Of a stretch of DNA of 64,000 nucleotides, positions 26,833 to 59,606 are shown piece by piece. Every line of letters begins with the position of its first letter. Within the stretch, counting starts at the first letter, position 1. Source of the stretch: Mucidula mucida (lineage: Eukaryota > Basidiomycota > Agaricomycetes > Agaricales > Physalacriaceae). The stretch is taken from assembly GCA_015501055.1 (NCBI GenBank), contig JADNYV010000079.1:1-64000 (forward strand), in the 5' to 3' direction. A model generated the notes under the pieces. That model saw only the letters and a list, made by a program, of their open reading frames with translations, was not told where the DNA came from and did no database searches. The translations under genes were made by a program, and so were the position numbers.

Positions 26833-26838
26833 TATAAA
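26833..26838 (+). promoter_or_regulatory. TATA box (TATAAA)
   Basis: TATAAA 111 bp upstream of the start codon of the secreted kinase-like gene, in a plausible position for a core promoter. Confidence 0.5.
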
Positions 26839-26948
26839 GAGGGCTGAGATTGACAAGGAAATGCATCGAGCTGGACTCTTTCCCATCCTACCACTTTATA
26901 CCATCACCCGGAGCAGGCCTCTCAAACTCTATACCATTTTCTCTCATC

Positions 26949-32100: not shown

Positions 32101-35100
32101 GTGACAAGGGAACAACTGTCACAACATGCCTTGCCAAGGTGACGCGAGCCTTCTGCCCTCCACTCAATGTTAGTCCTTTCTCACCGACCTCAGTCTCATC
32201 ACCAGCATCGAACAGTGAGATGTCTCGTTCGAGCCCACACTGATAGATGACTTGTTTGTAGCGATCTTCGTCAAAAGGAGCACCGAATATGATATTTGCC
32301 TGAACAAGAGTCAATCAACAGGACCTCATTCCGAGACCGACCTACCTTGATCGTTTCGTTTTGAACCCAGGACTCCTGCGCGGCATACGCGATGCCATTT
32401 GTACGAGGAAGGTTATACCAAGGTTCTGGCCCGATCGGGATAAAGTGCATCTCACCTATTGGGAACGTTGTGAGTTGCGAGAGGGATGGAGAGAAAGGCG
32501 TCGTTATTCACCAAGCAAAGCCATTAACAAACTCGTCTTTCCGGAGCCCGTGGGACCCACAATGAGGTTCAAACGTCCGGGCTTGAGAATTAGGCGGTCA
32601 TCAATCCTCAACAAAAACTTGCGCTTGGACGGTGTAAGCGAGCCATCGACGTCACTCGACCATGTAAAAGATGCGTTTTGGAAGCCAATGAGCGTGGATG
32701 TATCTTCCTCGTCTGCAGGTATATACAGATCACCACCAGTAGTGGCGTCGCCAGCGAAAGCATCAATGAGCTCTGTCTAAAGAAGTGAAGAGATTTATCA
32801 GCGCGATGGCTATGAATTATCGGTGCTGCACTCACGTTCTTCAGGAATTCGTTTATACGATCAACAGACACTTTGCCGGCAATAGAAGTCGTGATAAAGT
32901 TGAAAATCTCGTGAAGCTGCTGTTGCAGCATCTCGAAAACTGCCATACTTGAGAAGACAATGGAAGCCGTGAGCTCTCCTTTCATTACGATGGTCTTGAA
33001 AGCGTGGTCAGAGGCCGTAACAATCAGTGGAGAGGACGAAAACAAGTACACTGGAGAAAGAGTTAGACTACATAGCGCTGCTAGCAATGACAAGACACTC
33101 ACTAGACAGCATATGTGGTGATCATGGTAATGACCGGTATGATGAAGCTAATGTTACAGGTTAGAACAAATCTGAATATCAGGAAGAGCGTTCCGTACTT
33201 GACAACACCGTTCAGGAGATCAAGTAGCTGTCGATACTTGATCCAGACCATTTCGTCCTCGCGCTTGGAGGTGATACGCTCGTCCATACGAGTCTCCCAA
33301 CCGAAAAGTTTGACCATGCGAAGGACGTTCATAACTGGATAGGTGTTTGCTTAACGAAGCGAGCCTGACAGAGGAACCGCGACAAACTTTCTGTAACGCT
33401 TTGGACTCGGGCGTCCGTCTTCTTCAGTCGATTTTCTTGCACAGTGTGAGTAAGTTTGGCGATTAGTCCCGGAATGGGAAGCATGGCTATTAAGATAGCC
33501 AGGCCCACGAAGGCACTGCAAGGATACTCAGTATGGCGGACGTCCCGCAGCGACAGTCATGACAAATCGAGCACATACCTCCATCCAAGAATGGTGTGCA
33601 GGAACACGATACAGAGCGCAATTTGCACGGGAACATAAGCGACGATCAAGAAGAAATCTCTCGCCTCCACCACATTCTCTAGATCCGTCGAAACGAGATT
33701 GTTGATTTTGCCGACCAGATTACTGGTGGCGGAGTCAGGGTGGGGTGCATTCTTAGCGCTCTCCTTCTCAGCCTTGATCTTCGACGAGTTCGTGTTCGTG
33801 CTAGAGTTACTAGCTTGAACTGTAGAATCGTCACCATTGCTGGTGGAAGCACCTCCATCAAGTGTCGACTCTGCCTCAGACAAAGATGCGTCGTCTGGCG
33901 TTGAAGGTGTAGCGGATCCTTTACTGCCTTCACCCTCCGAAACGGATGCTTTCATACGAATACGAAGCGAGTGTTCAAACACGAGCTCGGTCAGAAGCGC
34001 CTGTAATCGGGAGATCATTTTGGCCTGGATAAGGGCATGAGATGGTGGACAAAGAAGTATACTGATCTGCTTACCGCAGTAAACAAATACCACTGTATAG
34101 CGATGGATGCCAGCACGGGACCAAATAATAAGAACAAGATCCAAACGTAAGGGCGGATAAAAGCATCTTCTCCTCGTGTTTCAACGTATCTGTGATCAGG
34201 AGATGATGTCGTCGAATACAGAACATAACAAGTAAACTTACGCTAGAAGCCTGTTGAGGCCGATAGGGCTCGCAAACGTGAAAACAACATGTAGTTCTAT
34301 CATGAGAATGAGGACGGCGTACTCCCAACGGAAAGCCAGAAGCAATCCCCAGAACAAATGACGCTTTGGTGCACCAGAGAAGACGTCCATATGCTCCACA
34401 TCGCATAAGTAAACGGGGTTTCACTAAAGTCTAGAACTCACAGGGAAACTTGTCCTCTTCAAATAGTGACCATGATCGAAATCAGCCAAAGGCGGTAACT
34501 GTTCAAACGCCAGTTGAGGTACTCGATACGCAAGAATTACCAAGGGGTCGAGATAGAAGAATGTAACCAAAGAGAAAATTGACGAGGTTTGTTCCAGTGA
34601 TGGAGATGGAGAAGGATTCTACAGCGGGTATGAGCGCACGTATGAGGACAAGGATGGAGCCGCACATTGGGATCAATCGGAACGTATGCGCGAGGTATGC
34701 CCAAAGGCAACACAACGCCGATGAATCCAAGCAAGGCAATCTTGGCCCAGAGGAGCTTGCCTTCAGCGGGATCCTGTATGGACAACGTGAACGTCAGGAG
34801 AGGAAAGACATCCCGGTACAAGTAGACACAGAACGTGACTAAAGCTGTCAAATTGTAGTGCCGCGTTACGACTCTACTCCATCCAGGCTGGATACACAGC
34901 GCGCTAAGCGCCAACGCGGATGCATAAAACTGAAATGTACGTGAAGACGCGTCGACAACCAGCATACGAAGAAATTCACCAGTGTTATAGGAACGCCAAC
35001 CATGACCAAAATATCATACGATCCACTCGCGCTATTCCGAGGACGTTCCAGTAAGAGTGTCACCACTGACAGGATGAAAACGGCGATAGAGCAAACGGCT

Positions 35101-35450
35101 CTCAAGACCATATGGAAGAAAATAACGCGTCCTCCAAGGCTATCAATATGGTCCGTCACTTTTGACTGCGTCGTGTCTGGGGCATCCAACGGTTCGGTCG
35201 TCGCTCTGGCGCGAATGCGTGAAAGAAAGTGCTTCACAGGACGGGAAACGACGGATCCATGGAGTAGAAGGACCAGCGCAGATACGACGGCGACACCGAA
35301 AGGAACGATGAGTGTGTTCACGTCGCTCCTTTCTAATTTTCAATAACGATAAGACAAGCATGAATTGAAAACGTACGGGCTGGAGGAACTGTTGAACCAG
35401 GTATTAGAGCCTGTCCAGGTCAACTGAACTTGCCCAAAGTCTGTGTACAT
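29164..35450 (-). CDS. ABCC-type (MRP/multidrug-resistance-associated) ABC transporter
   Basis: ATP-driven membrane exporter, full-length type with an extra N-terminal membrane domain. The start is ATG 35448-35450 (MYTDFGQVQLTW); stop TAA at 29164-29166. The N-terminal domain has several helices between 35320 and 34300. The first transporter domain spans about 34140-32800. NBD1 has Walker A GPTGSGKTSLLMALLG near 32550-32505, signature LTLSGGQKARVTLAR near 32170-32130 and Walker B IILLDD near 32050. A long acidic linker (EEMEEGH) follows, then the second transporter domain (31640-30350). NBD2 has Walker A GRTGSGKSSLTLSLL near 29990-29935, signature LSVGQRQIIALARAIV near 29620-29570, Walker B LLILDE and a C-terminal VLDAGNLVEFDSP block. 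At least 15 introns. All ATPase motifs are intact. Vacuolar or plasma-membrane export of conjugates is typical, but the substrate is unknown. Confidence 0.9.
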
Positions 35451-36435
35451 GGCTGTCCAAGATCAAGCTGAACCGGAACTGAACTCTGATTTAATAATAG
35501 CTCGGCACCGTAACCCAGCTTTTCCCTATCGACTCGGACTCAGAGTCATTCAGACGCCCCAGGGACACGCGTGATTGTAATGCCGATACACGAATTGCAT
35601 GGTGGCATTGATGGATCGTATGCGTTATCGCCAAGTTATCGCCGGTAAGGTGAAATACGCAACGAGGAAGCCGTTGCGCTGCGACACGTATCAGCTGTTT
35701 GGCGCTCAGGAGTGGTTCTGGCATCGATTCGCGAGCGCCAGCGACAACACGAAGGACAGCGCGAGCAGTAAAAGCGTGAGTTTTGAGAACCGTCAGGTCA
35801 GGGGTCTCCGGGTACACTTCCGCCAGAAGCCGTTGCCAAACACACCCAAATCAGATGCTGAGTTCAATAGCACCCTACTACCAGGATACACTTATAATAT
35901 CTGGGGAGTTCTGTAGGTGCTACTTTCTGGATCCCTACGGTGTATGCTCAGACAGTGATGTAGCAGACATTGTGCGCCATCCCAGTTTATGGAATCTCTC
36001 CAGTAATGAGAGATTACTGCCTCTGTCTCTTTGATCTTGAAAAATCTCAGCATTTTTCGATACTTCCGGACCATCTTGAGACTAGTAGCCTTCAGCTGTG
36101 AGAAACGCTGTCCGCATCGCTTGCTCGTGTTCATTAACATGTACTAGAATGAATGGGATCAAGATACGGATGCATGTCATGCCCCTTCGCGTTCGGGCGT
36201 GCAGCAGCTATACGTTGCTGAGCGTTAGCGCGTCAGCCATGATTGTGCTCAATAAATTCATGTCGTCACATACCCAGTTACTTCAAGTCAGGAACGTGGT
36301 CATACACTTCCTTGCGCTGGGCCATAGAGTGAACGTACTTACGCGTCTTCTATCTAGGTCGATTTCCCATCTCGATCTGGATTCAGAGTCGTCATCGACG
36401 ATCCCCGCTTTTCCCCAACGTGAACACTAACCACG
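35451..36435. other. Divergent intergenic region, transporter and Ohr copy A
   Basis: About 1 kb between divergently transcribed genes. The last about 60 bp before 36436 (GACGATCCCCGC..TTTCCCCAACGT) are closely similar to the upstream region of the second Ohr gene at 49721-49790, so the duplicated unit includes the proximal promoter. Nothing else recognised. Confidence 0.5.
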
Positions 36436-37091
36436 ATGAGCATGTCTTTCCTGAACACTGCGCGCCTCAGTACCCGTACTCTTGGCCGCGGACTGGCTCT
36501 TCGTACCACCTCGAGAGTTCCTGTCCGGTCATTCATGTCTCTCAAGACGAGCAAGGTACATTTCATCCGTTGCGTCCGAGATGTATTTGATCCTTTCTGT
36601 GCCAGTATGATGTCACTGCTACTGCCCAAGGTTCTCCACGCGACGGAAGCACGAGCTGCAATGGTCTCACCTTGAACCTCGCGCCTCCGAAAGAGATGGG
36701 CGGCGCTGGAAACGGAGAGAACCCGGAGCAGCTCTTCGCTATGGGTTATTCCGGTGCGCGTCTTATTCCATATTCTCATCGCGTCTCACAGTACGCAGCT
36801 TGTCTGCTCGAGGCGATCCACCTGGTTGCACGCCAAATGAACAAGACCGACATGGCCCAGCACGCGAAAGTACATGTTACTGTCCACCTTGGCGAGCCCA
36901 ATGACCTGCCAGGTTTCGGAATTGGAGTCAACGTGAAGGTAGAAGGTATCGATGACGAGCTCCTGCAAGCTGGACATGAGGTACGTCGTTATATCCTGGG
37001 AAGCTTCGTGTCTAACCAACTTGAACCATAGGCATGCCCATACAATCGTATGTTAAAGTACGGAGTGGATGTTCAAGCAACTGTTGCCTAA
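36436..37091 (+). CDS. Organic hydroperoxide resistance protein (Ohr/OsmC family), copy A
   Basis: Thiol peroxidase that reduces organic hydroperoxides. ATG 36436 opens an Arg/Ser/Thr-rich leader ([20 protein letters not shown]) that looks like a mitochondrial presequence. Three introns: after SLKTSK (about 36555-36605), inside GYS|ACLLEAI (about 36752-36799), and GHE|ACPYNR (about 36981-37031). The mature part reads [27 protein letters not shown] with the peroxidatic Cys, then GFGIGVNVKVEG and ACPYNRMLKYGVDVQATVA with the resolving Cys, stop 37089-37091. Both cysteines are present and no disruption was seen. The family is mainly bacterial, so fungal copies are thought to derive from transfer. 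A near-identical inverted copy lies at 49085-49720. Confidence 0.88.
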
Positions 37092-37561
37092 TCATGTACT
37101 CCAACCGAACAAATGTACTTTTACCACTGTACCACCACCAGTATTGAAACTGCAATCCTAATACTAATAGTATTCTTTCCAGTACTCCTGAACATTTCCG
37201 CAACTTCTTTGACGCGTCTTTCCCCTAGCTGACTTTCAGTAGACTTGTTGGTCTCACCGTTGGGCGTGTACCGGGGGTACAGTACGTCGAATCCCGATTC
37301 TGAACATTCAATGCTGAGCTGCGTTCTTATATGTAGGGAATAAATGCTCATGGCGTTGATGAGTATCACGTACGACGTTCCCACCCAACGCCAACGACGT
37401 ACGTACACGAACTTAACCCGCACAATCACTCAGGTGATACCTTCTCTCGTACGGTACTCACTCACGAACATAGTCTTTGCCGAGGATTTGACTAGTACCG
37501 CCTCCTCTAGATTAAAAGTTTCGTCATTCCATTCACCTACTGAAATATTCAGCATCTAGAC
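37092..37561. other. Intergenic, nothing recognised
   Basis: 3' flank of Ohr copy A and 5' flank of the F-box pseudogene. No feature supported. Confidence 0.4.
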
Positions 37562-38930
37562 ATGACACCCTCTCCGCGTGAATTCCCATTACCTGTAGAG
37601 CTCATCGAGCTCGTTGTTGCCAATATCTCCCGCGACATAGCGAGCTTGCGAATTGCCATCCTTGTCTCTCGCGCCTTCGTCCACGTCTGCCGAAAATATC
37701 TCTACGAGAGAATCATTCTTCTAGACGATACAGACGACCTCCAGCTTCGCTACCCGACTCGCTACCCGCTCGCCGAGCCGAGCATTCACCCATTTTCACT
37801 GAAAAGTCTTTCTCGGTTCTTCTGAAAGAGGTGCCCTTCATCGGCCATCTGGTTAAGGATCTCAGGATTTGCGCAAGCAATACATTACCCACCCAGAAGC
37901 TCCACGTGAAATCGAAGCACTTGCCTATCATTCCTTCCTTACCTTTCCTCCCTCGTGTCAATCTCCTTCCAACGAATTAAACCGACTATTCGGGTACCAG
38001 AGCGTCCTTCCTACAGATTAGAGTGCCCGTTCCTGCTCATGACCTCCCAATTGGCCAAGGTTATTCCACCTAGTGTTCAGTCAATGGAACTCCGACACGT
38101 CAAGTTTCAGTACGCCACTGTTGTCAATGTGCTTTTCAGCGCTTGCCGTCATTTAACCCATCTGGCATTATGCCATGTCAGCATTCTGCCAGAGAAGCAG
38201 TCTCTGAAGCACCTAAAAGCTTCTGGAACACTATTTTTCCTACACCGGCACCCGAGGCGCCATCCGTCGAGTTGCAATCTCTCATCATGGGAAAACAGGT
38301 CTGGCTTCACCCTCTTTTTGACATGGCAGAACATCGCCTGCCTTTCCCCTTCGAACTGTCATCCGTTACCTCGTTGAAGCTGTACGGTGACATGTACTGG
38401 GAAGCAGCTGGCCATATCTAAAGCCCGGAAGCCATAATGATCGAAACCGTGTCTACACTTCAAGAGTTGGTCATAGGGATAGATTTTTGTACGTGCTTTC
38501 CCCTAGGCTCTCATCCTATTCTGCTCACCGATGATCTTGCAGCCATTTTTGTACGCTTTCAGCGTTGCGTCCTCCGGGACCTCTCACGCCACACGCGGGC
38601 ACGCTCCCTTTCTTTGATTTTGATGAATGCCCAGACTCTGTCTGGAATAACTCTTCCCCCGCAGCTCGAGAAGCTGACCATCTTCGTCTCTCGGTATGAT
38701 CTCGACGCCTACATCGGCAACCATCCAGTATCTGCATCACTTTCTCTGGTCGAAATCCTTCTTCATCCGCATCATAATCGGTGTCGCACCTTCATCTGCT
38801 AATATGGATGGGACGATGATGTAGAATTTGAGGAACGAAAGGCAGAAGTTATTACGGGCATGCCCGTCCTTCGTGGTCGTGGTGTGCTGAGTGTGCGGCA
38901 ACTCAAAGGAGAGAGGAACGATGAACCATT
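37562..38930 (+). pseudogene. F-box-like protein gene, frameshifted
   Basis: The frame starts at ATG 37562 with FPLPVELIELVVANISRDIA and SLRIAILVSRAFVHVCRKYL, the F-box-like N-terminus common in Agaricomycetes. The phase then shifts at the T-run near 37795: the meaningful continuation EKSFSVLLKEVPFIGHLVKD is in the next frame. It shifts again near 37958 (VSISFQRIKPTIRVPER) and again near 38150-38250, and a stop at 38419-38421 separates the last block (STLQELVIGIDF onward, to about 38800). At least three indels and a stop show the gene is dead. Such proteins normally recruit substrates to SCF ubiquitin ligases. Confidence 0.7.
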
Positions 38931-39356
38931 ACCGTAACTTCAGACTTTCCAAAAGTGTTGCTCGAGTGTAAACTGTCGTGCAAATCAACGAAAATGGCTT
39001 GTCAGAGTGTTCAGTGCTGTGGTAATGGGTCGTATCATTAGGCAGAATATATGTTCATATTTCGGGAACAGTGAGAATGGGTTTCATGTCCGGTGGGGTT
39101 CCGAGGCGCTACATGGGGGGAATATTCTCGTCGGTGACTCGTACTTCGATAGTAGAACGCTATGGTCCAATTTGCGGGCGATCAAGGGCATGCGCCAGAA
39201 TTCCGCCACAATTCATCTCGAGATCCTTGAATTTATGAGCTAGGCGGGGCCGCGCAGGGCCACTCAATGAAGTTGATAGTATATGTATTCGCCGTTCTTT
39301 ATGGTGGGGTTTCATCTCCATTGCACTCGAAGGCGGAATTATTTGATTGAGTAGGT
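38931..39356. other. Intergenic, nothing recognised
   Basis: An open frame of 79 codons (39007-39243, +) has no known motif. It may be the tail of the neighbouring F-box pseudogene. Confidence 0.35.
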
Positions 39357-39957
39357 TTACACTGAGTTAGCATTAACACTGATAGGACCAAGGCAGACTG
39401 ACAACTCACTATCTAAATAATCGGCGGCAAGCAGCCTACACAGATAATCTTTAGTAGGAACACGGAAAGCGAGTGAGACGCACAGCTCCAACACAATCTC
39501 TGGCGGTATCCGCTCTATGAATTCATGGATAGGAACCTCTTCTTTCTTTGAATGTTGGTAATGTGCTTTGAAGCACATGTATTCAATGAGCTTTTGAACA
39601 ATAAGGCCTCTAGCAAGATCGTTGATGAGAAGGAAAGTAAATTTAAAAGAGAGCGCACCGGTCAGTCGCAGTATACGTCTTGGCGCTAGCTTCTGCAAAA
39701 CCGCCTACGTTGAACGCGTCACATGAACATCTAATCGACGCGAAGCAACTGAAATGAACATACTCTCCATGTCGAGCGAGTTCCTGATCGTTCCGCTGAT
39801 GTTCGCAATACTCCTCTTCACGACAAAGGCGAAACCATCGCTGCTGATGATGCGCACCCAGTCATTGGCAGAGTCTGCCGATCCCTGAGATGAGACTGAG
39901 TAGAGATTGTCGTGTTTTGGGCGGCGCACATACGCTCATTTCCACGTCTTCGGTCAT
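39357..39957 (-). CDS. ELC1: Elongin C (BTB/Skp1-fold adaptor)
   Basis: Adaptor of Skp1/BTB fold that links elongin A or other BC-box proteins to cullin ubiquitin ligases. ATG is at 39955-39957 (MTEDVEMS). Introns follow at about 39933-39885, 39773-39706, 39655-39609 and 39472-39429. The joined protein reads DWVRIISSDGFAFVVKRSIA, SGTIRNSLDMES, GFAEASAKTYTATDRGLIVQ, KLIEYMCFKAHYQHSK, then HEFIERIPPEIVLELL and LAADYLD, which is elongin C along its whole length. The end is ambiguous: read-through gives 16 more codons to the TAA at 39357-39359, whereas a GTGAGT..TGCTAACTCAG intron would end the protein at YLDM. A KDZ transposon sits 176 bp upstream of the start codon. Confidence 0.9.
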
Positions 39958-40124
39958 CTTCGCGTAGACAGAGATTGAGATGGTGGGAGACAGTGGCGAA
40001 CGAGCCTCACAATGGAAAGAAGATGATTGTTCACAAGCAGTCTTAAATAGCGCCGAAAAAGGTAATCCCCTGACGAAACTGTTTTCGGAGAAGTCGGACA
40101 CAATTCCTCGGCGTATTTTACTGA

Positions 40125-40132
40125 GGACAATT
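40125..40132. repeat. 8-bp target-site duplication of the KDZ element, left
   Basis: GGACAATT directly before the left tip; the identical GGACAATT is at 46246-46253 directly after the right tip. Confidence 0.95.
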
Positions 40133-40405
40133 CACCAAGGGTTCCCACTTAACCCACCTACTTAGGTCCCCATCCCTACCCAGGATGGGGACCTAACTAG
40201 GTCGGTTAAGTGTTTATTTACCACTGGCTGTAATACACGATAATTAAAGGGACTTATAGCCATCTGAGAGCACGGGTTCGGAGCCGATCCGCCCGCCTGA
40301 CATCACTGCGTGATCGGACCGGCATCTTAGGTCCCGCTCATCATCCCGCCGTTGCCGCAACTGTCTTCACCGCCGTCCCCCGTATCCCCGCCAAAAATAA
40401 ATCCA
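40133..40405. repeat. KDZ terminal inverted repeat, left
   Basis: Matches the reverse complement of 45975-46245 from CACCAAGGGTTCCC to TATCCCCGCCA with only scattered differences. It contains a hairpin: 40146-40175 pairs with 40183-40212 (30-bp stem, two mismatches, 7-nt loop). Confidence 0.93.
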
Positions 40406-40505
40406 AAAAATTGCGATAAATTGTATAAAAAAAATATGGGCGGCACAATGCCGCAATTGTCACGTAAATATGATAAGTCCATGCCCTATACTAACTCAAC
40501 CCGCC

Positions 40506-42108
40506 CTACTCGGAGTCATTATTGGCGCTGTCGACGACCTTGGAGGATACCGCGCGGCGCTTCGTGACGCGACACTTCTGCTGCACAGGCGCCTCATCGT
40601 CATCCTTACTGCCACTCTCTCCCACTGCGGCGGCATCAGGCGCAGACCATTTGCGCTTTGTCGTCTGCCTGGGCATGGGGCGCGGGCACCGCTCGACTTC
40701 GTGCTCCTCGTATGCTCCTCCGTCATTGTTGTCGTCCTCATTGCTGGCGTTGCGACCGACGGGATCGTCGTCATCCTCCTCCTCCTCAGTCTCATCGAAC
40801 TTCTTTCTCTTCTTCTTCTGCTTCCTCCCTTTTGCCTTCTGCTCCTTCTCCTTCTGCTTCCCCTTCTCCTTGGTTGCTCTCTCTCTCTGCAACGGCGATT
40901 GGTCCTCCTTGGACATCCGAACCCACCGACACTTATTGTCAAGTACCGCAGCATAGACGCAAATGAGCTGATTCTTGCGGAGCTCCGCAGGCCGCTTGAA
41001 AGGCGCCTCCTTCGGCCAACCAACCAACTTCGCGCCGTGTTCTGCGGCGATGGCGTTGGGGTCCGAGAAGTTCATGCTGACCTTAACGTTAATGAGGGTC
41101 TCTGTAAAACGGTCAATGCGATCAGTGAGCAGACATTAACGGTAGCGCACCGAGGGAATGGGTGAGGGAGAACTTGATCTTTGCAGCAAGCTGCGCAACT
41201 GTCAATGGCTTCACAATCTCTATGGCATTGTCAGTCCAGGCTTTGAGCGGGACCAGTTAATCAGCTCACCGCTGCCCTTCATCAAGCTCCACGCCTCGAA
41301 TAGCACGGCAACATCGCGCACCGTCTTTCCGAGCTGCTCCAAGCAGAACTCTTCAGCGCCTCCACTCGTGAGGCCCGGATTGCAGCCCGGCAGCCTCAAG
41401 CTCAGCAAGCATAGCTGCATGAGCGTCCTTGCAATCATTGTCCCAACTTTCATTGTTGCGAGGCTTGTCAACGAAGCAGCCACCGACGCGACCTTCTGAG
41501 TCAACAATAGGCCGGATGACGCTGTGAAGACTGATTACAGAAGGACGGGTGAATAAACATGGTGCTCACCCCGGTTTGTATTCAACCTTGCGAAGCCCCA
41601 TGGCGTCTAGCTGCTCCGGGGTGTATTGGGTGCGGACACCCAAAGTCTGTGTCTCCCGTTTAGCGGTGTACATGTTCTTCGCGGCTGGAAAATCGGCGGC
41701 GGTGGCCGTGGTCGCGAGTTTCTCGGCTCGCTCAAAGATTTTGGCGTTAAGCCGGTCATCAGCATGGTGACCTTCCTTGTCCTTCACAGTGTCACATTTT
41801 CTTTGGTGTTTGGCGTGGCGGAACAAGTTCTTGCCAGATGATGGACTGGGACGCAGGCGCTTAACGCCAATAATGGGTTCAGCGTTGCAGGTAAAGGAAA
41901 CCAAGGGCATGCGGTTGATGTCATCCGCATCAGTCTCCTCCTCGTCCTCGTCGCGGCTGTTGTCCTCATCAAGACTATCGTCTAATTCAGCACTTGTGGA
42001 GGCTTGCAGGAGAGCAGCAAAGTCTGCATCGACCTGAACGGGGAGCACCCAGGGCAAGAAGATGTGATTCGAGCGAGTAAGTCGCATTCCAAGAAAGAAG
42101 GTGGCCAT
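40506..42108 (-). CDS. Accessory protein of the KDZ element, function unknown
   Basis: ATG at 42106-42108 opens MATFFLGMRLTRSNHIFLPW; then comes an acidic stretch (DEDNSRDEDEEETDADD) and a basic region (FRHAKHQRKCDTVKDKEGHH). After an intron at about 41569-41521 the frame reads GVIRPIVDSEGRVGGC, a motif I associate with transposon-linked fungal proteins. The phase then changes near 41345-41360, either by an indel or an unrecognised intron. Later blocks are SLMKGSEIVKPLTVAQLAAK (across a probable 50-nt intron), MNFSDPNAIAAEHGAKLVGW and a Lys/Glu-rich coiled tail (KEKGKQKEKEQKAKGRKQKK) ending at 40506. No enzyme motif is visible; in particular no dioxygenase HxD..H core, although TET/JBP genes are known companions of KDZ elements. 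Conserved position opposite the transposase argues for a role in transposition or its control. Confidence 0.55.
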
Positions 42109-42397
42109 TGCCTAAAGGACAGAGCATCAGAACCGGTTTGAAAGTCGCTTGATGATGGCAAACCCAACGGATTTGGCTGAAAAGTGTGTTTTTCCTGCTG
42201 ATCTGCTGGACCCAGGATTGAGTCCGTCCAGATAAGCAAAAAAAACACGCTTTGGAGCCAAATCAGTGGGGAAGAGGAAAGGAACTAGACAGAGACTTAC
42301 TTTAGGTGTTGGGAGGGAGAAGAGAAAGTGATTGTACCATGTGACTTTGTTTGCTTTATTTGGCTGTAGGCTGTTGTTGTACTTCGACCATTCACCC

Positions 42398-45300
42398 ATG
42401 CCAAAAGGATCCTCCAGAAAAGTCGTCGAGCGTACAAGGGGGATAGGACATCAGCTGCGGGGTCCAGACGCTCGTGCGCACCAGACACAGCAAGATCTGA
42501 AGGTCGCGTTCCGGCGGAACCAAGGTGGGATTGAACGCAACCTTCTATACCCTTTAACCTTGTCTTATAGATAAAAGCAGGAGGGAGCAGCGGAAAGATG
42601 CACACACCCTGAAAACTTATGTCGTCCAGGTGTTGAGCCAAACTGACGCCTCGGGATCCTCTGAGGATGTGCCGATGGACGTCGACCAGGACTCAGACTA
42701 TCATGATGTCGAAGAGTCTGAGGCATATCAGGATGTTGTTACCGGGAAGACACGTTTGGAGATCAGTTACGCTGGAGACGAGTCCGGACTAGTCATTAGC
42801 AGGCTGGCTACAGGGATCTCCGACACGTTGTCAGAAGGAAGGCGATTCAGGCGCGATACGTGTTTGCGTAGCTCTTGGACTGAAGCACGAACACTAGCCT
42901 TTGCGGGTCAGATTGGAGAGATGATCACTGTGTATGGGCACTTCATGGCCACGCACGGGACAGAGGGTTTCAATAACACGGCGCCAGAGGCTCCGCCTAC
43001 TGAAGCGCAGGCCACGCAGGAGGTGACAGTAGTCAATGTGTTTGGTGAGTAAGAAATAAAACCTACGCGACGCCGCGGTGGCTGACTTCAAGATAGGCAG
43101 ATTTACTAAAGGGTTGATCACAAAGTACGCGTGCAACAAGTTCACCGCTAGTGCGTTCGTCCGAGAGGGCTTAATACAGAGTGCACCTTTTAAACCTGGG
43201 GTGGCAGTCACCGTCTGCACAATGGAGCTGTTCAGGCGCCTCCGTAATCGTTCTCCTTGCCTTTTAGTGCAGGCATTCAGCACCGCTCTTTGCGATATGG
43301 ATCTCCAACCCAGTTGCCACCACTTCGAGAAACAATTAACTATATGCTACGATGTCTTCATTTCATTGGTGGAAGGCCTTGAGAAATGCGTCAAGCGCGC
43401 ACTTAATCGCAATTCGCCTGACTGGAGGCTTGCAAATGCTTGTGCTTCCTGTCTTTATGTCGTTCAGAACAAGCCGCTGCAAGACACGTCACTATTACTC
43501 ACGGGGGATGGGAACAATTCCATCATGCAGATGAAGAACTTCCATGTGATGCCGGTCAACCTGGACAAGGCCAAGGGAGACGAGATGGATGGTAAGGCCG
43601 AGACCAACGACGGTGATGAAGGGAGCAGCAGGAGTAAATGCGGTAAGCCTGGCAGGAAGGGAAAAGGAGGGAAGGATCGGACGGGATACAATGCGCCGGA
43701 CGTTTGTTTGACGGAATTGTTGGACACGCGAGACGGGCAAGGGGACTACTTCATTCAACCAGTCAAGGTGGAGAAGTTTAAGAAGAATTCTATGAAAAAT
43801 AGCTGGGTGAGTACTACACAAGCCAGAGGAGGATTTACTGACGATGATTTAGAAAAGCACTACGGGCAAGCCTGACCGCGCCGCCTGTGAGGATAGGTGG
43901 CATAATATGGTAAACAATGTGGCTTCAAAGGCATGAGGGATCTACAAGGAAACGGGAATATTTGTCCTGCTGTGCCGACATGACATGATGTTCATGGTCG
44001 CAGACATGATTGAAAGCGGGGAGCTGTACGTGGTTGTTCTATTTGTTAACCATGATACTCACTCATGGAATAGAGCAGTGTATCCACTGGCACTGATTGA
44101 GCGCCTACTGGAGGTCATTAAACTCCACAAGATCGTTATCGGTTACGACTGCGGCTGCAAGTTTAAGAAAACCCTCGCGCGTTCAATGCTGGGCCCAGTC
44201 ACAAAGGATCAGGTCGTCAAATTTGTAGTCGGATTATTCCACGGGCACGCCCATAACCGCAAATGCCAACTGTACAATCTACCGACATATTGAGAAGGAG
44301 TTGGCCTCAATGCTTTAGAGAACTGTGAGTCCTACTTTTCCAAGTCGAACACTCTCGCCCCGGTTGTCCGTCACTCCTTGACTTTCCACCAATATCAGAC
44401 TGTTTGGACGTACATGCAGCACATGGATGAAGTGGAGACATTCCAACGTTGGAGTACGTATTCTCCCGTCATGCATTCTGTGAGCTAACATTGCTATTCA
44501 GCCATTACTCTGTACAACAATATCAAGCACACATTGGAGATCATAGCCAACCGCCCCGTGCTATTAACAATGATGCAGCACTTGGGTGTCAAGGACACGA
44601 ACAAGTTTTATGAATGGCTTGATGACGAACGGCAATATCTGCGAATGTTGCACGCGGAGCTAGAAGAAGACAGCCTTCGGGTCGAGTACTACAAGGCACT
44701 GACTGCTTGGCACAATGCTACGTAAGTTATTTATTTGTTGAAGGTTCAGTCACTGATTGCCAACAGAGAGAAGCTCAGCAAAGCGCGACGGGACACGCTG
44801 ATGATTCCGCTGGGCGACAAGTGTAACCCAGAGGTTCTTGCAGTGGAACAGGAACACCAAAAACTGCTGCATCGGGTAGTATGGTCTCTGGAACAAGTCG
44901 AGTACCTTGAGCAGCGCCTGAACATCTTTGAGCGCTGGGAAAAGGACTCCCTTGAGTTCCAGTCCACCGCCCAGCTAGCAATGACCAGGGAGTATCGCCT
45001 GGCGTTTGATGAGCTTGAGCGACTGGTTGTTTCTCGCATATTTGAGCTTACCAAGATGAACATGTCTGGTACAGGTAAGCTTTGAATTTGGTGGTCAATA
45101 ACCGTTCTAATATGTGTGCGGCAGGTTATAAACTGCGGAAACACATCACAAAGGCCCTCCAAGCGCGCTCGAAGGCGGTTAGAGCCGCTCTAACTCGGTT
45201 CAATGCTGCCGCCGCTCGTCTGAAACGAGACAAACTTAGCTGGGAAGAAGTGGTCGCGTACAGCTTCTTAGCCGAGTTTGACCTTTTGCGTGACTCTCGG

Positions 45301-45906
45301 GAGGAGGTACAGAGGAAGAAGTGGTCAACGCCAGCCGCCAGAGAGGTGCTCAATGCGTTCTTCAAGAACCTTCGCGCAGAGGAGACATTAACCCGCTGCA
45401 TAATAGAGGGCACACAACTGCTCACCTATATGAGGGACGAGGAGCAATATCTCAAGCTCGCGGTGGAGCTATACACCATGTCAAGGCCAGAAATTGCGCA
45501 GCAAATTCGACACAAAGCACTGTTCAAGAAGCGCGTTCATGATGAGCATCGCAAGCGGCTGAAGCGCATCGAGAAATTGGACGGGTACGCGGAGGCAGTG
45601 GGCGCGGTGAAGCAGCTGGACGGATTCCAGGCAATTACACTGATGACGGGTGAGAGGAAAGGCCGGCGCGAAGGGTTCGAGATTGAGGAGTTGAGGGCGA
45701 CGGCAGCATTGGCGAGAGACGCCACTGATGCGCCGACGGCGACCGACATCAACAAACCAGGCCCGCATTCAGACGGCGATGATGATGATGATGATGACGA
45801 CTCGGACTGGGAAGACGTCGGCTATGAACACGAGGGTGGGCGTGATGACGATGAGGCAGCAATTGACCTGGCTGTGCAACTTACCACCCTGTCAGTCAGT
45901 TCCTAG
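42398..45906 (+). pseudogene. KDZ transposase with two premature stops
   Basis: ATG 42398 opens MPKGSSRKVVERTRGIGHQL, the usual N-terminus. Introns at about 42526-42571 and 43050-43090 follow, then the cysteine-containing block NACASCLYVVQ, a GDYFIQPVKVEKF block, RAACEDRWHNMVNNV, YKETGIFVLLCRHDMMFMVA, YPLALIERLLEV, GYDCGCKFKKTL, GLFHGHAHNRKCQLYNLP, NALENCESYFSKSN and HQYQTVWTYMQHMD, all in the KDZ order. The end is acidic with a run of eight aspartates, stop at 45904-45906. A TGA at 43934-43936 stands where this family has Trp (SKA-stop-GIYKETG), and a second TGA at 44291-44293 interrupts PTY-stop-EGVG. Apart from these the frame is well preserved, so inactivation is recent. Confidence 0.88.
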
Positions 45907-45974
45907 CTCGGTGATTCCCTGTTATGTATTTCCAATGGTTGTTTATATTATTGTACAATTTATGGTATTTTTTT

Positions 45975-46245
45975 CCGATTTATTTGGCGGGGATAGGGGG
46001 GACGGCGGTGAAGACAGCTGCGGCAACGGCGGGATGATGAGCGGGACCTAAGATGCCGGTCCGATCACGCAGTGATGTCAGGCGGGCGGATCGGCTCCGA
46101 ACCCGTGCTCTCAGATGGCTATAAGTCCCTTTAATTATCGTGTATTACAGCCAGTGGTAAATAAACACTTAACCGACCTAGTTAGGTCCCCATCCTGGGT
46201 AGGGATGGGGACCTAAGTAGGTGGGTTAAGTGGGAACCCTTGGTG
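45975..46245. repeat. KDZ terminal inverted repeat, right
   Basis: Inverted partner of 40133-40405, ending GGGAACCCTTGGTG. It carries the same hairpin. Confidence 0.93.
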
Positions 46246-46253
46246 GGACAATT
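46246..46253. repeat. 8-bp target-site duplication of the KDZ element, right
   Basis: GGACAATT, identical to 40125-40132. Confidence 0.95.
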
Positions 46254-46695
46254 GGACTCGTATTGTTCGAGCAAGGCTTTGTTGGATCTAGATTCAACAA
46301 GTCCAACGGCAGTCCAAGGGCCCGTGTAGCCAAAAGACCAGCCAAAGTGTAGCTGGACGGAAAAGGCAAGTCGTCGATCACCGATGATCATACCTACAAC
46401 CAGTTTACGAATTCCTAGGACCTTTCTCTCGTTCACGTACAAGAGCAGCTACTGCGTGTATCGTCTATCTAGGCGCTGCTGCAGCAGCCCATCAAAATGA
46501 CCCTTCGAGAATGACTTAGAATGCGGTCCCGCGCGCGTGGTACCGTGACCTGGAGCCTTTGCTTTTCCCATCATCTCATTGTCGCAGTCATGGCCTCAAT
46601 TTAGTGCGCATTATCTTTGCCTTGACCGAATGAGAGCGGCCTCTTGGGCAAGACATTGACCACTATCCCAAGGACCAGTTTGACTTATTGTTTCC
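46254..46695. other. Intergenic, former elongin C upstream region
   Basis: Before the KDZ insertion this sequence would have begun 176 bp upstream of elongin C. It now forms the space between the right KDZ tip and the F-box gene. No other feature seen. Confidence 0.5.
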
Positions 46696-46701
46696 TATAT
46701 A
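46696..46701 (+). promoter_or_regulatory. TATA-like box (TATATA)
   Basis: TATATA 61 bp before the start codon of the intact F-box gene. Confidence 0.35.
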
Positions 46702-46761
46702 GGTCCCGTCTGCTTGGCGTTGCAGTCGTTCTTATCCCCAGCCATTCCTTCGCTTCTTACC

Positions 46762-48303
46762 ATGTCCTATCCATTTCAGCATCTCCTGGACGACGCCACG
46801 CAATATGCCCTGCAAAGCCCGCCTGCAGCAGAGCGTCTCACCCAGGTTGTTTTCCAATTCACGTCCGACGTTAAGCATCTACTCTCCACCCGCACAATCG
46901 CCCTTCTCCCCACGGAGTTGTTGTGCGAAATATTCATCTTCGCATGCGCCGTAGATCCTCATACAGACCCGCCGCTTGAACCGAACAGCATCATGCGGAT
47001 TACGCCGATGCTCATTGCCGCCGTCAATAAACGGTGGCGAACCATCATCCTCGATCTGCCTGCAGCCTGGTCTTGTATCGACATCAACTTTCACGTCGGA
47101 ATTGAAGTGCGCCGCAACAAGTACGGTCTAATCCTCGCGCACCTCATTCAGCTGCATTTGGATCGTTCTCTTCCTTGTCCGCTTTCCATCCGCCTCCGCA
47201 TCCCACCGCGTTCTCCCGATCGCGTCCTCCATGTCCTACTCATGAAACCACTTACGTTCTACTTCATCCAATCTCTACTAGTCCCTCATTGCGCCCGTTG
47301 GCGTCATGTCTCTATCGACGTTTGCGGCAAGAAAGTCAATTCTTTATACTTGCCGTTCCAGCTCATGCCGTCTCTCCGCCTCCCAATGCTCGAGGCGCTC
47401 ACGATTGAGAATGCAGAGCCAGACCCGCCTCAAGTGCCTTTCTGTGAAGCACTGGCGGAGGCGACGTCTCTCAAGCATATCCAGTTCAAGGGCGGCAGGG
47501 TCCTTCTGCCTCTCCTGGAACAGCTGCAACCCCGCCTCCTACGTAGTCAACAAATACAGACTGTCGTTCTTGATGGCTTTCGATACGACACTCTCCTTTG
47601 GCACCTTGCAATCTTGTACAAAGTTCATAGAGTCATTTGCAGGGATATGGAGCTTTCACCTGGTCAATTCGGTGTTCAATTGGAGCTCCCGCCGACGGCG
47701 AGCAGCGTTAGAAATCTCACCGTGGTCTTTGGATGGCAAATCAATTTACGTTGGTTCAAATTCCTTACCGCTTCCAAACTGCAGGGCATTGAGTTCATCC
47801 ATATCCATCCTACCTCGTTGGCAACGGACGGCCTTTCATCCGCCATCATCGAATTTTGTAATCGTTCGCAGATAACTCTTTCGCTTAGACGTCTTGTCCT
47901 TAAAGGCGTCGTCATGTGGTCTAGCGACGTCGTGAGCATTCTCCGCACCGCACCCCAGCTGGAGGAGCTCGTCCTTCACGAACCGGTTGGACAATCTACT
48001 ACGCAGTTCCCTAATTATCTCTTTGAGATGGACGACATACAAGAGGAGCCGCATATGATCTCGGAGACGTTTTGTTTACGTCTTTCCTGCGACGAAAGCC
48101 TTGGTGCAAAGTTGCACACGATGGAGTTGGTCTGGTCGTGTGATTTGAGCGTTGATGCGGTTTTGGATATGCTTGACGAGCGGAAAAAGATTGTAAACGT
48201 TGGACTGGGGACCCGTCCGTTCAACCGGTTCGGGCCATCTGATATGGAGCGCGTGATGACGCTTCGGGAGGAAGGGCGAACGTGTTGTCTTGTACCAAAT
48301 TGA
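46762..48303 (+). CDS. F-box-like protein
   Basis: Intron-free frame of 513 residues from ATG 46762 (MSYPFQHLLDDATQ) to TGA 48301-48303. The F-box-like segment is LLPTELLCEIFIFACAVDPH, followed by ITPMLIAAVNKRWRTIILDL and AAWSCIDINF, the arrangement seen in the very large Agaricomycete F-box family. The rest is a leucine-rich, beta/alpha-like body (LEALTIENAEPD, SLRRLVLKGVVMW, LEELVLHEP) that likely binds the substrate. It should act in an SCF ubiquitin ligase. An earlier in-phase codon (46714) is not ATG, so 46762 is preferred. Unlike the two F-box pseudogenes in this window, no disruption is seen. Confidence 0.85.
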   Translation: MSYPFQHLLDDATQYALQSPPAAERLTQVVFQFTSDVKHLLSTRTIALLPTELLCEIFIFACAVDPHTDPPLEPNSIMRITPMLIAAVNKRWRTIILDLPAAWSCIDINFHVGIEVRRNKYGLILAHLIQLHLDRSLPCPLSIRLRIPPRSPDRVLHVLLMKPLTFYFIQSLLVPHCARWRHVSIDVCGKKVNSLYLPFQLMPSLRLPMLEALTIENAEPDPPQVPFCEALAEATSLKHIQFKGGRVLLPLLEQLQPRLLRSQQIQTVVLDGFRYDTLLWHLAILYKVHRVICRDMELSPGQFGVQLELPPTASSVRNLTVVFGWQINLRWFKFLTASKLQGIEFIHIHPTSLATDGLSSAIIEFCNRSQITLSLRRLVLKGVVMWSSDVVSILRTAPQLEELVLHEPVGQSTTQFPNYLFEMDDIQEEPHMISETFCLRLSCDESLGAKLHTMELVWSCDLSVDAVLDMLDERKKIVNVGLGTRPFNRFGPSDMERVMTLREEGRTCCLVPN

Positions 48304-48513
48304 CCAATGATCCAGCTACTTACTTATGTGTACTTCTTATGATGATCGTTTCAATGGACGCGTACATATGTTGCTGTACTTGTTATTTGGTCTCGCCAAC
48401 GCGTATTTTGACCTTGTGGTTTCACCTCTATCGTTGTTATTCGCGTCCGTAGCCTAGAAGCGCGTCGTTGGATATTGCGCCACGTGAATATGTATTTTCA
48501 CAATCCGACCGCG
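48304..48513. other. Intergenic
   Basis: 3' flank of the F-box gene and upstream region of the small protein gene; nothing else seen. Confidence 0.4.
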
Positions 48514-48520
48514 TATAAAA
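48514..48520 (+). promoter_or_regulatory. TATA box (TATAAAA)
   Basis: TATAAAA 76 bp before the start codon of the small Ser/Tyr/Gly-rich protein gene; good match and spacing. Confidence 0.6.
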
Positions 48521-48589
48521 GCCGACGACGACTGTTTCGCCTCTTTCCCAACGACCACCATCTCGAAGCCTTTCCTTTGAATCGTAAAG

Positions 48590-48892
48590 ATGCCCATGAA
48601 CTCTTCCTCTTCCTCGAACAACACCGTCACCACTGGGAGTGGCACCAATTCTCAAGTGAGCTACCTTTCATCGATTTTCTTACCGCCACGCTCATCGCGC
48701 TCAAAGGGAAATCACTACTGTAACCGAGCGGACTCATGCTCTGGCGCGACGGGCTACCATTATTCAAATACGTATGTTGAGTCTATCCCTCCGTCTCTCC
48801 GAAAGTACTTACTTGTTTGCAGCAATGGTAGCTACTACTACAGCAACACCAATGGCTCGACGTACTACAACTCGGGTAGTGGATATTCCTAA
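48590..48892 (+). CDS. Small Ser/Tyr/Gly-rich protein
   Basis: Three exons. Exon 1 begins at ATG 48590 (MPMNSSSSSNNTVTTGSGTN). Intron 1 (about 48654-48707) joins NSQ to GNHYCNRADSC, and intron 2 (about 48769-48823) joins YHYSNT to NGSYYYSNTNGSTYYNSGSG, stop TAA 48890-48892. The protein has about 65 residues with repeated Y-x-N/S-x-G units, a composition I associate with small conserved fungal proteins of unknown function. Reading without splicing gives an intron-derived break of the pattern, which supports the introns. No signal peptide or membrane helix. A strong TATA box suggests high or inducible expression. Confidence 0.6.
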   Translation: MPMNSSSSSNNTVTTGSGTNSQVSYLSSIFLPPRSSRSKGNHYCNRADSCSGATGYHYSNTYVESIPPSLRKYLLVCSNGSYYYSNTNGSTYYNSGSGYS

Positions 48893-49084
48893 TACACGTC
48901 GCCCAATGGCCAGAGCTACAAGTCTTCTGGGAAGTAGTAGTAGTGGAAGTGGATTGCAGACGTGTTTCGAAGTACAATATGGAAATGAATGCCTTTTCTG
49001 ATTGGCAGTGCAAAGGATGACATTTGCAAGGCTGGGCAGTATAATGGTAGCAATACATTTATTTGATGTGATTATCTTTTGTTT

Positions 49085-49720
49085 TTAGGCAGCAGTTGCC
49101 TGAACATCCACTCCATGCTTCAACATACGACTGTACGGGCACGCCTATGGTGCAGATTGGTTAGACAAGAAGCTTCCCAGGATATAACGACGTACCGCAT
49201 GTCCAGCTTGCAGGAGCTCGTCATCGATGCCTTCCACTTTCACGTCGACGCCGATTCCGAAGCCTGGCATACCTTTCGGCTCGCCAAGGTGGACACTAAC
49301 GTGTACTTTGGCGTGCTGTGCCATGTCGGACTTGTTCATTTGGCGTGCAGCCAGCTGGATCGCCCCAAGAAGACAAGCTGCGTACCGTGAGACGCGATAA
49401 AAAATATGGAATAAGACGCGTACCGGAATAACCCATAGCGAAGAGCTGCTCGGGATTTTCTCCATTTCCAGCGCCGCCCAGCTCTTTCGGGGTCGCGAGG
49501 TTCAAGGTGAGACCGTTGCAGCTCGTGCTGCCGTTGCGTCCGGCGCCTTGGGCGATAGCAGTGGCGGTGTACTGGCAAAGAAAGGATCGAATTCATATCG
49601 GACTCGACGAGTGAAATTTACCTTGGTAGTCTCAAGAGACATGAATGACCGAGCCGGAAGAAGGGCCAGCCCACGGCCAAGAGTACGGGTACTGAGGCGC
49701 GCAGTGTTGAGGAAAGACAT
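49085..49720 (-). CDS. Organic hydroperoxide resistance protein (Ohr/OsmC family), copy B
   Basis: Paralog of the gene at 36436-37091, in opposite orientation. ATG at 49718-49720 opens [20 protein letters not shown], the same putative mitochondrial leader, shortened by about seven residues before RSFMSL. Three introns lie at the same positions as in copy A, and their sequences are also clearly similar. The peroxidatic Cys (GYSACLLGAI) and resolving Cys ([10 protein letters not shown]) are present; stop TAA at 49085-49087. In the segment from ACLL to AGH about ten of some 61 residues differ from copy A, mostly conservative changes. Both copies look functional, so they may be specialised in expression or substrate. 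Confidence 0.88.
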
Positions 49721-50177
49721 GCTAGTGTTTACGTTGGGGAAACGCTTGGGAAACGCGGGGATCGTCGATGACGACAGTCCGGTGTTCAAAGAGATAACCA
49801 AGTTTTATTCTCGGTGGGGCATATCATTAATACCGCCTTCCATTCTATCATACTCTGCATCTACAACATGACCTTTAGCACGCTCAAGGACTTTGACAAG
49901 CAAGTTCAGTAACGACCTCTCATTGACTAGATTCAACGCGATCCAAGGATTTTAGCCTTCTTCAGATCCAAAATTCTGTCAGATACCAGTCTGCGTTCGA
50001 CAATTGGAGTTTTTCATGGGGACCAAGATCTCGCGACGCGTCGTATGGTATAATCGACAGGCATCGAAGAATCAAGATACGGAGCTGAGTCGAAATTGGG
50101 AGATTCTGCGTGTACAACCAGTTACAAGAAGACGGGGAGCAGTGATACATGATACATGTGAGAGAGCGATACACCTA
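49721..50177. other. Intergenic; promoter of Ohr copy B and 3' end of pICln
   Basis: The first 70 bp (49721-49790) resemble the upstream region of Ohr copy A in reverse. Nothing else recognised. Confidence 0.45.
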
Positions 50178-50928
50178 TTATTTGTCTTGTGCCTTCGCCG
50201 TTGCTTTGGCGTCGCCGTAATCAATGATGGACTCGAGATGATCGAGGGTAGCCTATGAAGGCGAACAGAAAGCAGTCAATATGGCTGGTATCGGTTGTCG
50301 TTAATAAAATCGCTGCGCACTTTACCGACTTCGCTCAGTTCCTCCCCTTCATCATCGTCGTACGCGTCAAAGTCGTCGGCATCGACAAAGGCATCGTCTT
50401 CATCGTCGGACGGAGATGGCTCGTCGGGATGTAGTGATGCGCAGAGCGATAGCGCCTCAAATATAGCGTCGACTACAATTGCGTATCAGTGGATTTTGCC
50501 TGAGTATTGCGCGACTACATACGTGAAGTGGGATCGCTTGGCGTGATTATGAGCTCTCTCATTTGCTCATCCTCACCATCCAGCACCTCCAGGTTCCCAA
50601 AAGCGTCATCCAACTGGCAGTAGATATTCGGCACCTCGCCTTCTGCCCGCGATATCGCGTGGAGCGTGATTGCAGGATACTCGATTTGGAATCCTTTCCC
50701 GCTCTCGGCCTGTATGAAGACCAAGAACGAGTCTATCACGTAGAGGGTGCCGGTGCCCCATTCGGGCTGACCGTCGATGGCGGGATCGAAAGAGACGCGA
50801 ACGTTGTCTTGTTTGTGCCGCAGGACGGCGGGAATGTCGGCTAGGTTTTCGGGTGTGGATGAGACGAGGGCGCGATGGTCGTCGGGAGTGTTGAAAGGCG
50901 GGATCGTGGATGTGAGAACGACAGCCAT
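50178..50928 (-). CDS. pICln (methylosome subunit, nucleotide-sensitive chloride conductance regulator family)
   Basis: Acidic PH-like-fold chaperone that delivers Sm proteins to the PRMT5 methylosome during spliceosomal snRNP assembly. ATG at 50926-50928 opens MAVVLTSTIPPFNTP. The PH-like part contains DNVRVSFDPAIDG, WGTGTLYVIDSFLVFI, YPAITLHAISRAEGEVPNIY and CQLDD, then MRELIITPSDPTS. After introns near 50520-50470 and 50330-50260 comes an acidic tail rich in Asp/Glu (DADDFDAYDDDEGEEL), then LDHLESIIDY, stop TAA 50178-50180. Domain order and length fit pICln well. Its usual partner PRMT5 is not in the window; the PRMT1-type gene at 22.7 kb is a different enzyme. Confidence 0.85.
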
Positions 50929-54784: not shown

Positions 54785-55904
54785 TCATCCACTGAAGTCT
54801 GTCGCAAATCCATCATCGTCACTGTCGTAGGCGTCCATGGCGTCAGCTTGAAAGTAGACTTTGTCCTGAGCGAAATGTGTAGTGTCGTGAGCGATATGTG
54901 CCGTGTCATATGTCCGATTGAGACACCAGTCCTTGACTTCCTGCGGCATATCCTTCACACAGCAGGCAGCCTTGTGCGACATCCCTCCACAGTGATGACA
55001 CCCGTCCATGGACATATCACCCCACCGGTTCCCTCGGCTGTCCGTAAACCCTTGACCGTCACCATGACCTCCCCCTCTTCCCCAATCATCTCCCCCTCTT
55101 CCTCTATCATCTCCTCCATAACCTCCCCCTCTAGAGGCAGAACCGTATCCAGCCCCACCGCTGCCTCTAGCTCCTTCTCTACCCCTTCCCTTCCCTGCAT
55201 ACCCCGACCGACGTACACGAGCAGTCAGCGCAATAGATGCAGACTGACGCTCCTCCTGATTCTCCGCCTCCTCATCAGCATCAAAGTTATCAGGAATGGC
55301 CGCATTCAGAACCTCCTTGCAGGTTTTGAGATCGGGTTCCCCTCCGGGCTGAGCCAGCAGTGTGCTCCGAGTTGAACCAAATGACTTGTCCAAGTTCTGG
55401 AGGAGCACATCCTTGATGTAGCTCTCGGCGAGCACCTCCTTCTCCGGAAGCAATGACTGAAGACGCTTAGCTGCAGCAGTAATTGCCTGGACATAGATGG
55501 AGATTGGTTTCGATGTATCATGGACGACACGGTGGAATACAGCGCGGGCGGATGAACGTGTGCCGAAGGATGATTTTTTTGAAGTGGGCGACGAGGGCGG
55601 CAAAGACTGCACGACCACCGACTGCATTGGCGTGAAGATCGCGACAGTTGGGATGTGACATGTTGCGGAGAATGGACTCAGCTTGAGTATTGAGCTGGTC
55701 CCAGGTAGCAGCATCCTCCGCCTTGGTTGGGCGAGCAGTCGTGCCATCGACGATGTGAATGGAGACGCCGTCGGCAGCAAGAACAGTCTGGAGTGCCTCG
55801 CTTTTCCAAGTGCTCCATCCCTCTGGCTTATCGGCATCGAGTTTGTCCACATTTCTGGCAAGTGCAAGGAAAGTGCTCATGTTGTACATGTTGCTGGACA
55901 TCAT
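54785..55904 (-). CDS. Gag polyprotein of the LTR element, frameshift at an A7 run
   Basis: The first part opens at ATG 55904 (MSTFLALARNVDKLDADKPE, then a LNTQAESILRNM segment) as in copia-type gag (UBN2-like) proteins and reaches VAHFKK near 55570. Here a run of seven adenines on the coding strand occurs, and the continuation (SSARAVFHRVVHDTSKPISI, LLPEKEVLAESYIKDVLL) is in another phase down to TGA 54785-54787. The second part has an RGG-rich region and a CCHC zinc knuckle (CHHCGGMSHKAACC), then an acidic end. The frame change may be a disabling indel or a slippery site used for frameshifting. The protein should package element RNA. Confidence 0.8.
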
Positions 55905-56023
55905 GGTGAAGTGGAAGTGGAATGATGATGGTGTGAATGTGTGTGTGTTTTTGTGTTAATGGAACGAAAGTGGGAACTCCAAGATATGGCTCTAAGATGG
56001 TGTGTAGACTCTAAGATTGGTTA

Positions 56024-56045
56024 GGCGCAAGCGGGGCCCATAACC
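56024..56045 (-). promoter_or_regulatory. Primer-binding region of the LTR element
   Basis: Directly beside the 5' LTR, reading GGTTATGGGCCCCGCTTG on the minus strand. The position fits a tRNA primer site; the tRNA is not identified. The 14-base core recurs at 2829-2842. Confidence 0.6.
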
Positions 56046-56187
56046 TGTTGAACGGGGACACGACTCTGAGATGGTGATGGCGGGAAAAGCCCCGTAACAT
56101 TCCGCGACGATCAAGTCATAGCTACTGTATGTACATATTTACTAGCAGCTCTTGGAAGCCGAGCAGCCGAACATTCCAATGCCAACA
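56046..56187 (-). repeat. LTR (5' LTR of the minus-strand element)
   Basis: 142 bp, partner of 54596-54737; followed by the target duplication CTAGT at 56188-56192. Confidence 0.93.
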
Positions 56188-59598: not shown

Positions 59599-59606
59599 AT
59601 CTTTTG
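59599..59606. repeat. 8-bp target-site duplication of the hAT-like element, left
   Basis: ATCTTTTG, identical to 60235-60242. Confidence 0.85.

Follow-up and report, generated by a model that had tools for sequence, protein, structure and literature searches.

Upstream of the elongin C gene of Mucidula mucida (Physalacriaceae), in the interval that elongin C shares with a divergent F-box-like neighbour, lies a KDZ-type transposon whose tips are intact and whose interior is reduced. The window referred to below is the whole stretch of DNA analysed, 64,000 nucleotides long, and positions are those of the window unless a contig (C239 and the like) is named; the assembly searched for related sequence holds 59.9 Mb in 1,047 contigs. 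The features of the locus, from left to right, are these.

39357..39957, minus strand: elongin C gene, starting at the ATG at 39957; introns taken out by script (three) and by eye (one), 3' end uncertain
40125..40132, plus strand: left copy of the target-site duplication, 8 bp, GGACAATT
40133..46245, no strand: KDZ-type transposon, an internally deleted derivative of 6,113 bp, missing from the colinear contig C239
40133..40411, plus strand: left terminal inverted repeat (TIR), 279 nt, 97%
40146..40212, no strand: imperfect palindrome in the left TIR, 67 bp with 30-nt arms, 93%; DNA fold z −5.68
40506..41135, minus strand: accessory-gene open frame, rich in lysine and acidic residues, pointing toward elongin C
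41369..41371, no strand: deletion junction with TGA microhomology, 5.27 kb missing relative to C616, C185 and C152
41370..42111, minus strand: TET-like gene, N-terminal part, cut ahead of the catalytic core (from homologues and the predicted fold of a homologue)
42399..45906, plus strand: transposase gene remnant of several exons (open reading frames and Pfam; exon model by eye)
43874..44428, plus strand: KDZ transposase domain PF18758, 171 bits when read through two TGA
45967..46245, minus strand: right TIR, 279 nt, 97% complementary to the left
46166..46232, no strand: imperfect palindrome in the right TIR, the same as in the left
46246..46253, plus strand: right copy of the target-site duplication, 8 bp, GGACAATT
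46762..48303, plus strand: F-box-like protein, divergent neighbour; a weak match (E 0.011, 15.9 of 24.3 bits) below the Pfam cut-off

The element and its ends

The two copies of GGACAATT are the only ones on the plus strand of the 64-kb window, where base composition leads one to expect about one, and the minus strand has none. The 8 bp do not belong to some longer repeat that arose by chance, as identity between the two copies extends for 0 bases beyond the 8-mer on either side. The element itself ends in CA..TG, and its inverted repeats are identical over their outermost 227 bases. The original prediction of an exact 8-bp duplication at both tips (40125-40132 and 46246-46253), of near-identical inverted repeats, put at about 270 bp and here measured as 279 nt at 97%, and of a 6,113-bp boundary exact to the base (40133-46245) is borne out, as is the placing of the insertion 176 bp from where translation of elongin C starts, the distance from the minus strand ATG at 39957 to the first base of the element. 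The palindromes begin 13 bases inward of each tip, and folding of the left one as a 100-nt strand gave the z of −5.68 with 0 of 200 shuffles as good; they may constitute a pair of candidate transposase binding sites. Tips of a related family (on C928, C103, C882, C160 and C1044) have the same palindrome start at about 75% identity.

Assignment to the KDZ class follows from the transposase, for which the frame at 43937-44290 scores 107 bits with Pfam KDZ (PF18758), where the cut-off is 26.6 (E 1.2e-30). The element had been called a complete KDZ transposon, and of that description the class and the intact tips stand, but the interior has lost 5.27 kb and the KDZ domain has two in-frame stops, at 43934-43936 and 44291-44293. 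Comparison of three copies makes the stop at 43934 private to the window copy and finds small length changes in the vicinity of the second stop at 44291; C616 has a 41-bp deletion elsewhere in the transposase, and none of the three copies read across the transposase has an intact one. A protein of M. mucida at NCBI (P0048) matches the transposase query at 89% identity over 66%, and at least 89 KDZ match pieces, counted exon by exon, occur in the assembly. As regards a CxC domain, no Pfam family was found at E ≤1 in the two long upstream open reading frames, and the accessory frame at 40506..41135 is also without a Pfam match at E ≤1.

On the elongin C side the protein, with four introns out, has 23 distinct PDB matches of which 22 are named elongin C/TCEB1 (best E 1.6e-11), and the identification rests on these matches since Pfam Skp1_POZ is below its cut-off (17.8 of 21.9 bits).

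The empty site and the sequence ahead of elongin C

The 1,125 bp left flank and the 1,047 bp right flank of the element each have exactly one other match in the assembly, at C239:13822-14950 and C239:14959-16005 respectively, both at 99% identity. The 8 bases that separate these matches are a single GGACAATT, which occurs once in the 10-kb stretch of C239. The prediction that an empty site would hold one GGACAATT therefore passed its check, with C239 joining both flanks via that one copy, and the two copies in the window are accordingly a duplication.

Beyond the immediate flanks C239 runs colinear with window 26000-30000 (99%), in pieces with 33781-50261 (92-97% per piece) and with a large part of 56188-60000 (90-92%). 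Where C239 has nothing to match the window, the window sequence resembles further insertions. Window 55000-56187 is a repeat for which C239 shows no match, and at about 57613-58146 a repeat of some 533 bp, again without a C239 match and with more than 30 copies among the matches listed, is probably a solo LTR. At about 40098, toward elongin C and some 25 bases away from the insertion point, the window and C239 differ in length by 5 bases.

We infer that C239 is the other haplotype of the same mushroom and hence that the insertion is haplotype-specific. Elongin C is intact on both, with an identical protein (three introns removed). Between the haplotypes, 33 of 1,682 positions differ in the left flank and 104 of 2,712 in the right. 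This is about the same order as the non-CpG private changes of the window copy, and so a recent date for the insertion is not required.

Between the elongin C ATG and the target duplication the filled copy retains 167 bp of the old upstream sequence, and a further 508 bp, up to the F-box-like ATG at 46762, are now on the far side of the element. On C239 the two start codons are separated by 687 bp without interruption. The claim that distal promoter sequence had been displaced is thus upheld for the window copy but fails for C239, which keeps its 687 bp. Whether by minus strand readthrough or by silencing that spreads into the remaining 167 bp, an alteration of elongin C expression by the insertion seems unlikely. 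The original suggestion that a TIR or the accessory gene may drive or dampen elongin C stays a conjecture. The accessory frame does lie on the strand of elongin C and stops at 40506, 549 bp short of that gene's ATG, the decay of the element (below) fits methylation, and for Tricholoma matsutake 83.2% of 702 TE-surrounded genes are given as untranscribed in the account of PMC6980582. However the element borders elongin C on just one side, the upstream region of the other allele is uninterrupted, and up to 500 bp from the tips the filled side shows no more CpG loss than the empty one (left flank 0 on the filled and 1 on the empty allele, right flank 1 on each, few events in all). A spreading of methylation into the elongin C flank, considered by itself, is unsupported, the flanks being without a substitution imprint on these few events. 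Consequences for elongin C expression would probably be small or buffered by the other allele.

The haplotype reading of C239 has its own competitor, namely that the contig is a diverged segmental duplicate and the empty site a paralogous locus. Identity that ranges from 90 to 99% along the contig could be taken that way, but C239 is colinear over window 26000-60000, barring insertions in one of the two, and a single other match for each flank in 59.9 Mb of assembly speaks against it, so that a paralogue appears quite improbable; the empty-site joint is in any case proved even if C239 is paralogous.

Sister copies, the missing 5.27 kb and the TET-like gene

Family copies on C616, C152 and C185/C81 were compared with the window. 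From these sister copies, few of which are complete, the fuller form of the family is about 11.3 kb with inverted repeats of about 280 bp; the transposase occupies one strand, and the opposite strand carries further genes that include a TET-like one. The window copy is without 5.27 kb that are present in all three of the other copies covering the place (C616, C185 and C152), and the deleted part includes the catalytic half of the TET-like gene. Neither the TET-like piece nor seven other open reading frames of the 5.27-kb segment gave anything above a Pfam cut-off. No second copy bearing the same deletion was seen in the assembly comparison, and so the deletion and the stops may have arisen in place, after insertion at the elongin C site.

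The converse history would make the 6.1-kb form ancestral and have the other copies carry a 5.27-kb nested insertion; it draws on the 3-bp direct repeat TGA that flanks the extra segment, as would a 3-bp target duplication. Against this the segment ends without a terminal inverted repeat (by eye) and sits at the same place in three copies, the diverged relatives on C138 and C928 are contiguous over the left junction into the 5.27-kb segment, and single proteins from other mushrooms run across the right junction, P0002 covering 98% and P0004 100% of a two-sided query. On all these grounds a nested insertion in the sister copies was rejected as very improbable, and a deletion in the window copy is preferred. 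Scarcely credible is an assembly artefact in which a repeat was mis-joined at the elongin C locus, for which the splitting of the assembly into 1,047 contigs and the sister copies on C185 and C81 that stop within the element might be cited, but the empty allele has only one copy of the 8 bp that are exactly duplicated here, and a deletion and substitutions of its own set the window copy apart.

Clean empty sites were found for two of the four insertions sought, on C239 and on C727. The latter is the empty allele of the C185/C81 site, whose halves lie on two contigs with TCAAAGAG on both sides as an exact 8-bp target-site duplication; one TCAAAGAG joins both flanks on C727. For the C152 insertion, set against C1044/C996/C86, the 8-mers agree (TACTGGTT), the halves being on different contigs and presumably a pair, and there is no second copy of its flank in the assembly. 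The right tip of the C616 copy is missing. The flank of this insertion matches C635 and C898 at 96%, which are not clean empty sites since 61 bases lie between two copies of GTCCGCTT. On both contigs (L057, from C635, 1203-1279; L058, from C898, 1249-1325) an element tip sequence, CCTTGGTG, overlaps the second GTCCGCTT by one base; the 61-base site is a possible excision footprint or relic. In the related family with 75% similar tips, exact 8-bp duplications flank five of the five elements examined by eye, out of at least ten tip pairs. Within the C152 copy (C152:34319-54676; L011, L045 and L046) an insertion of about 9.8 kb is nested at element position 1008-1015, with an 8-base overlap, and this holds another KDZ domain match; a repeat of about 533 bp lies at the place where the right part of the copy breaks off.

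The TET-like gene can be placed at L009 7733-8113, minus strand (C616:12232-12612). Forty-seven homologues of the gene were found, mostly in mushrooms, and one of these is predicted to fold as the TET-like double-stranded beta-helix. The iron ligands, an HxD and a distal H, are well kept among 41 homologues, with H349 invariant and D351 and H402 at least 90% conserved, and the region from HxD to H is open in C152 and C185. The gene is thereby predicted to belong to a TET-fold dioxygenase family, with mushroom relatives that would fold like CcTet of Coprinopsis cinerea, at 14% identity. The family profile (A1), run against PDB sequences at E ≤10, returned 11 rows with no TET among them, and the assignment rests on the predicted fold of the homologue. 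Pfam Tet_JBP reached 13.7 bits for P0002 against a cut-off of 34.9, and there was no Tet_JBP row for P0001, for P0004 or for the C616 piece. Set against the published types by their descriptions, the gene may be a further type of TET: the PE type in PMC12730594 has HxE by definition and the gene here HxD, and the AG type is said in that account to be close to CcTet.

CpG decay, kinship and proposed history

The transposase region was aligned over 3,371 columns, in which 51 CpG-to-TpG/CpA changes are private to the window copy, on 253 CpG as counted on the majority sequence with gapped columns included. Its other private changes comprise 22 more of the C-to-T type, 7 gains of CpG and 3 transversions. 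With 22 changes on 1,383 non-CpG C/G bases, the rate of change per base at CpG is 6.3 times that at other C/G (Fisher p 5e-15). Private CpG changes number 70 in C152, 51 in the window copy and 16 in C616. This decay fits the deamination of methylated, silenced copies, where the methylation itself is something we infer from the substitutions. A protection in cis by TET is unsupported, for C152, with its open TET-like catalytic region, has the most CpG changes of the three copies. In the TIRs 0 of 61 CpG bases are changed, compared with 60 of 641 in the interior (Fisher p 0.007) and 9 of 135 in the adjoining interior (p 0.06), these two interior counts following slightly different rules, and a sparing of the TIRs from CpG decay is only a lead. 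According to one 2025 paper, itself citing another, hypermutation is undetected in Agaricomycotina (PMC12730594), and Tricholoma matsutake is reported with a CpG bias in the account of PMC6980582.

The PF18758 domain, together with an 8-bp target-site duplication and TIRs, has the element share the traits of the KDZ superfamily. KDZ1 of Cryptococcus neoformans, as PMC12810828 describes it, is alike in its KDZ transposase, its length of about 11 kb, its 241-bp TIRs and its 8-bp target duplications. It is unlike in being mobile and almost unmethylated, and in the CxC1 domain with which it is described and which is not seen here in the two long upstream open reading frames; the window copy is moreover about half the length of KDZ1, and broken. 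Zisupton elements, in the description of PMC12730594, also have a KDZ domain, TIRs and 8-bp target duplications, a likeness drawn by terminal features, and some of them in Auriculariales and Agaricales are said there to carry TET/JBP genes. TET-positive Kyakuja of Agaricomycetes, in the same source, resemble the present family in uniting a KDZ transposase with a TET-like gene in mushrooms. However Kyakuja-1_LB and Kyakuja-2_LB are described there with 7-bp duplications and no TIRs, whereas here the duplication is 8 bp and the TIRs are 279 nt, the CA..TG ends being common to both. In its termini, then, the element goes with Zisupton and not with Kyakuja. A literature search on KDZ names, dikaryon insertions, Zisupton, TET with KDZ and Mucidula mucida found no paper on this KDZ family in Mucidula. 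The element is a decayed, deleted and apparently haplotype-specific member of a known KDZ kind.

Overall we regard it as highly probable that the locus records a KDZ-family insertion on one haplotype by a copy that shows a 5.27-kb deletion, a broken transposase and CpG decay of the kind expected of methylated DNA. In this history a fungal KDZ cut-and-paste element inserted into the upstream region common to elongin C and the F-box-like gene and duplicated 8 bp there. The window copy lost its 5.27 kb by deletion between TGA microhomologies, and bears two stops in the transposase and a CpG decay like that of methylated, silenced DNA. Given the deletion, the two stops and the CpG decay, the window copy could presumably move only with transposase supplied from another copy, and the best reading of the window element is a non-autonomous, formerly methylated deletion derivative. 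A further proposal is possible, if on balance doubtful, in which the full form is a TIR-bearing, 8-bp-duplicating KDZ element with a TET lineage outside PU, AG and PE, and the window copy a cheater that shed its TET gene in the 5.27-kb deletion. If that were true, copies with and without the TET gene at known haplotype-specific sites would provide a natural test of DNA protection by TET.

For the organism, the filled and the empty allele of the upstream region of an adaptor gene are available within one assembly and to the exact base, and a wood-decay mushroom becomes the host of a well-documented KDZ insertion. CpG-type decay is seen in transposon copies of a species of Agaricomycotina. For the family, a gene family of predicted TET fold, which the Pfam Tet_JBP model misses above its cut-off, is linked to a KDZ element of mushrooms.
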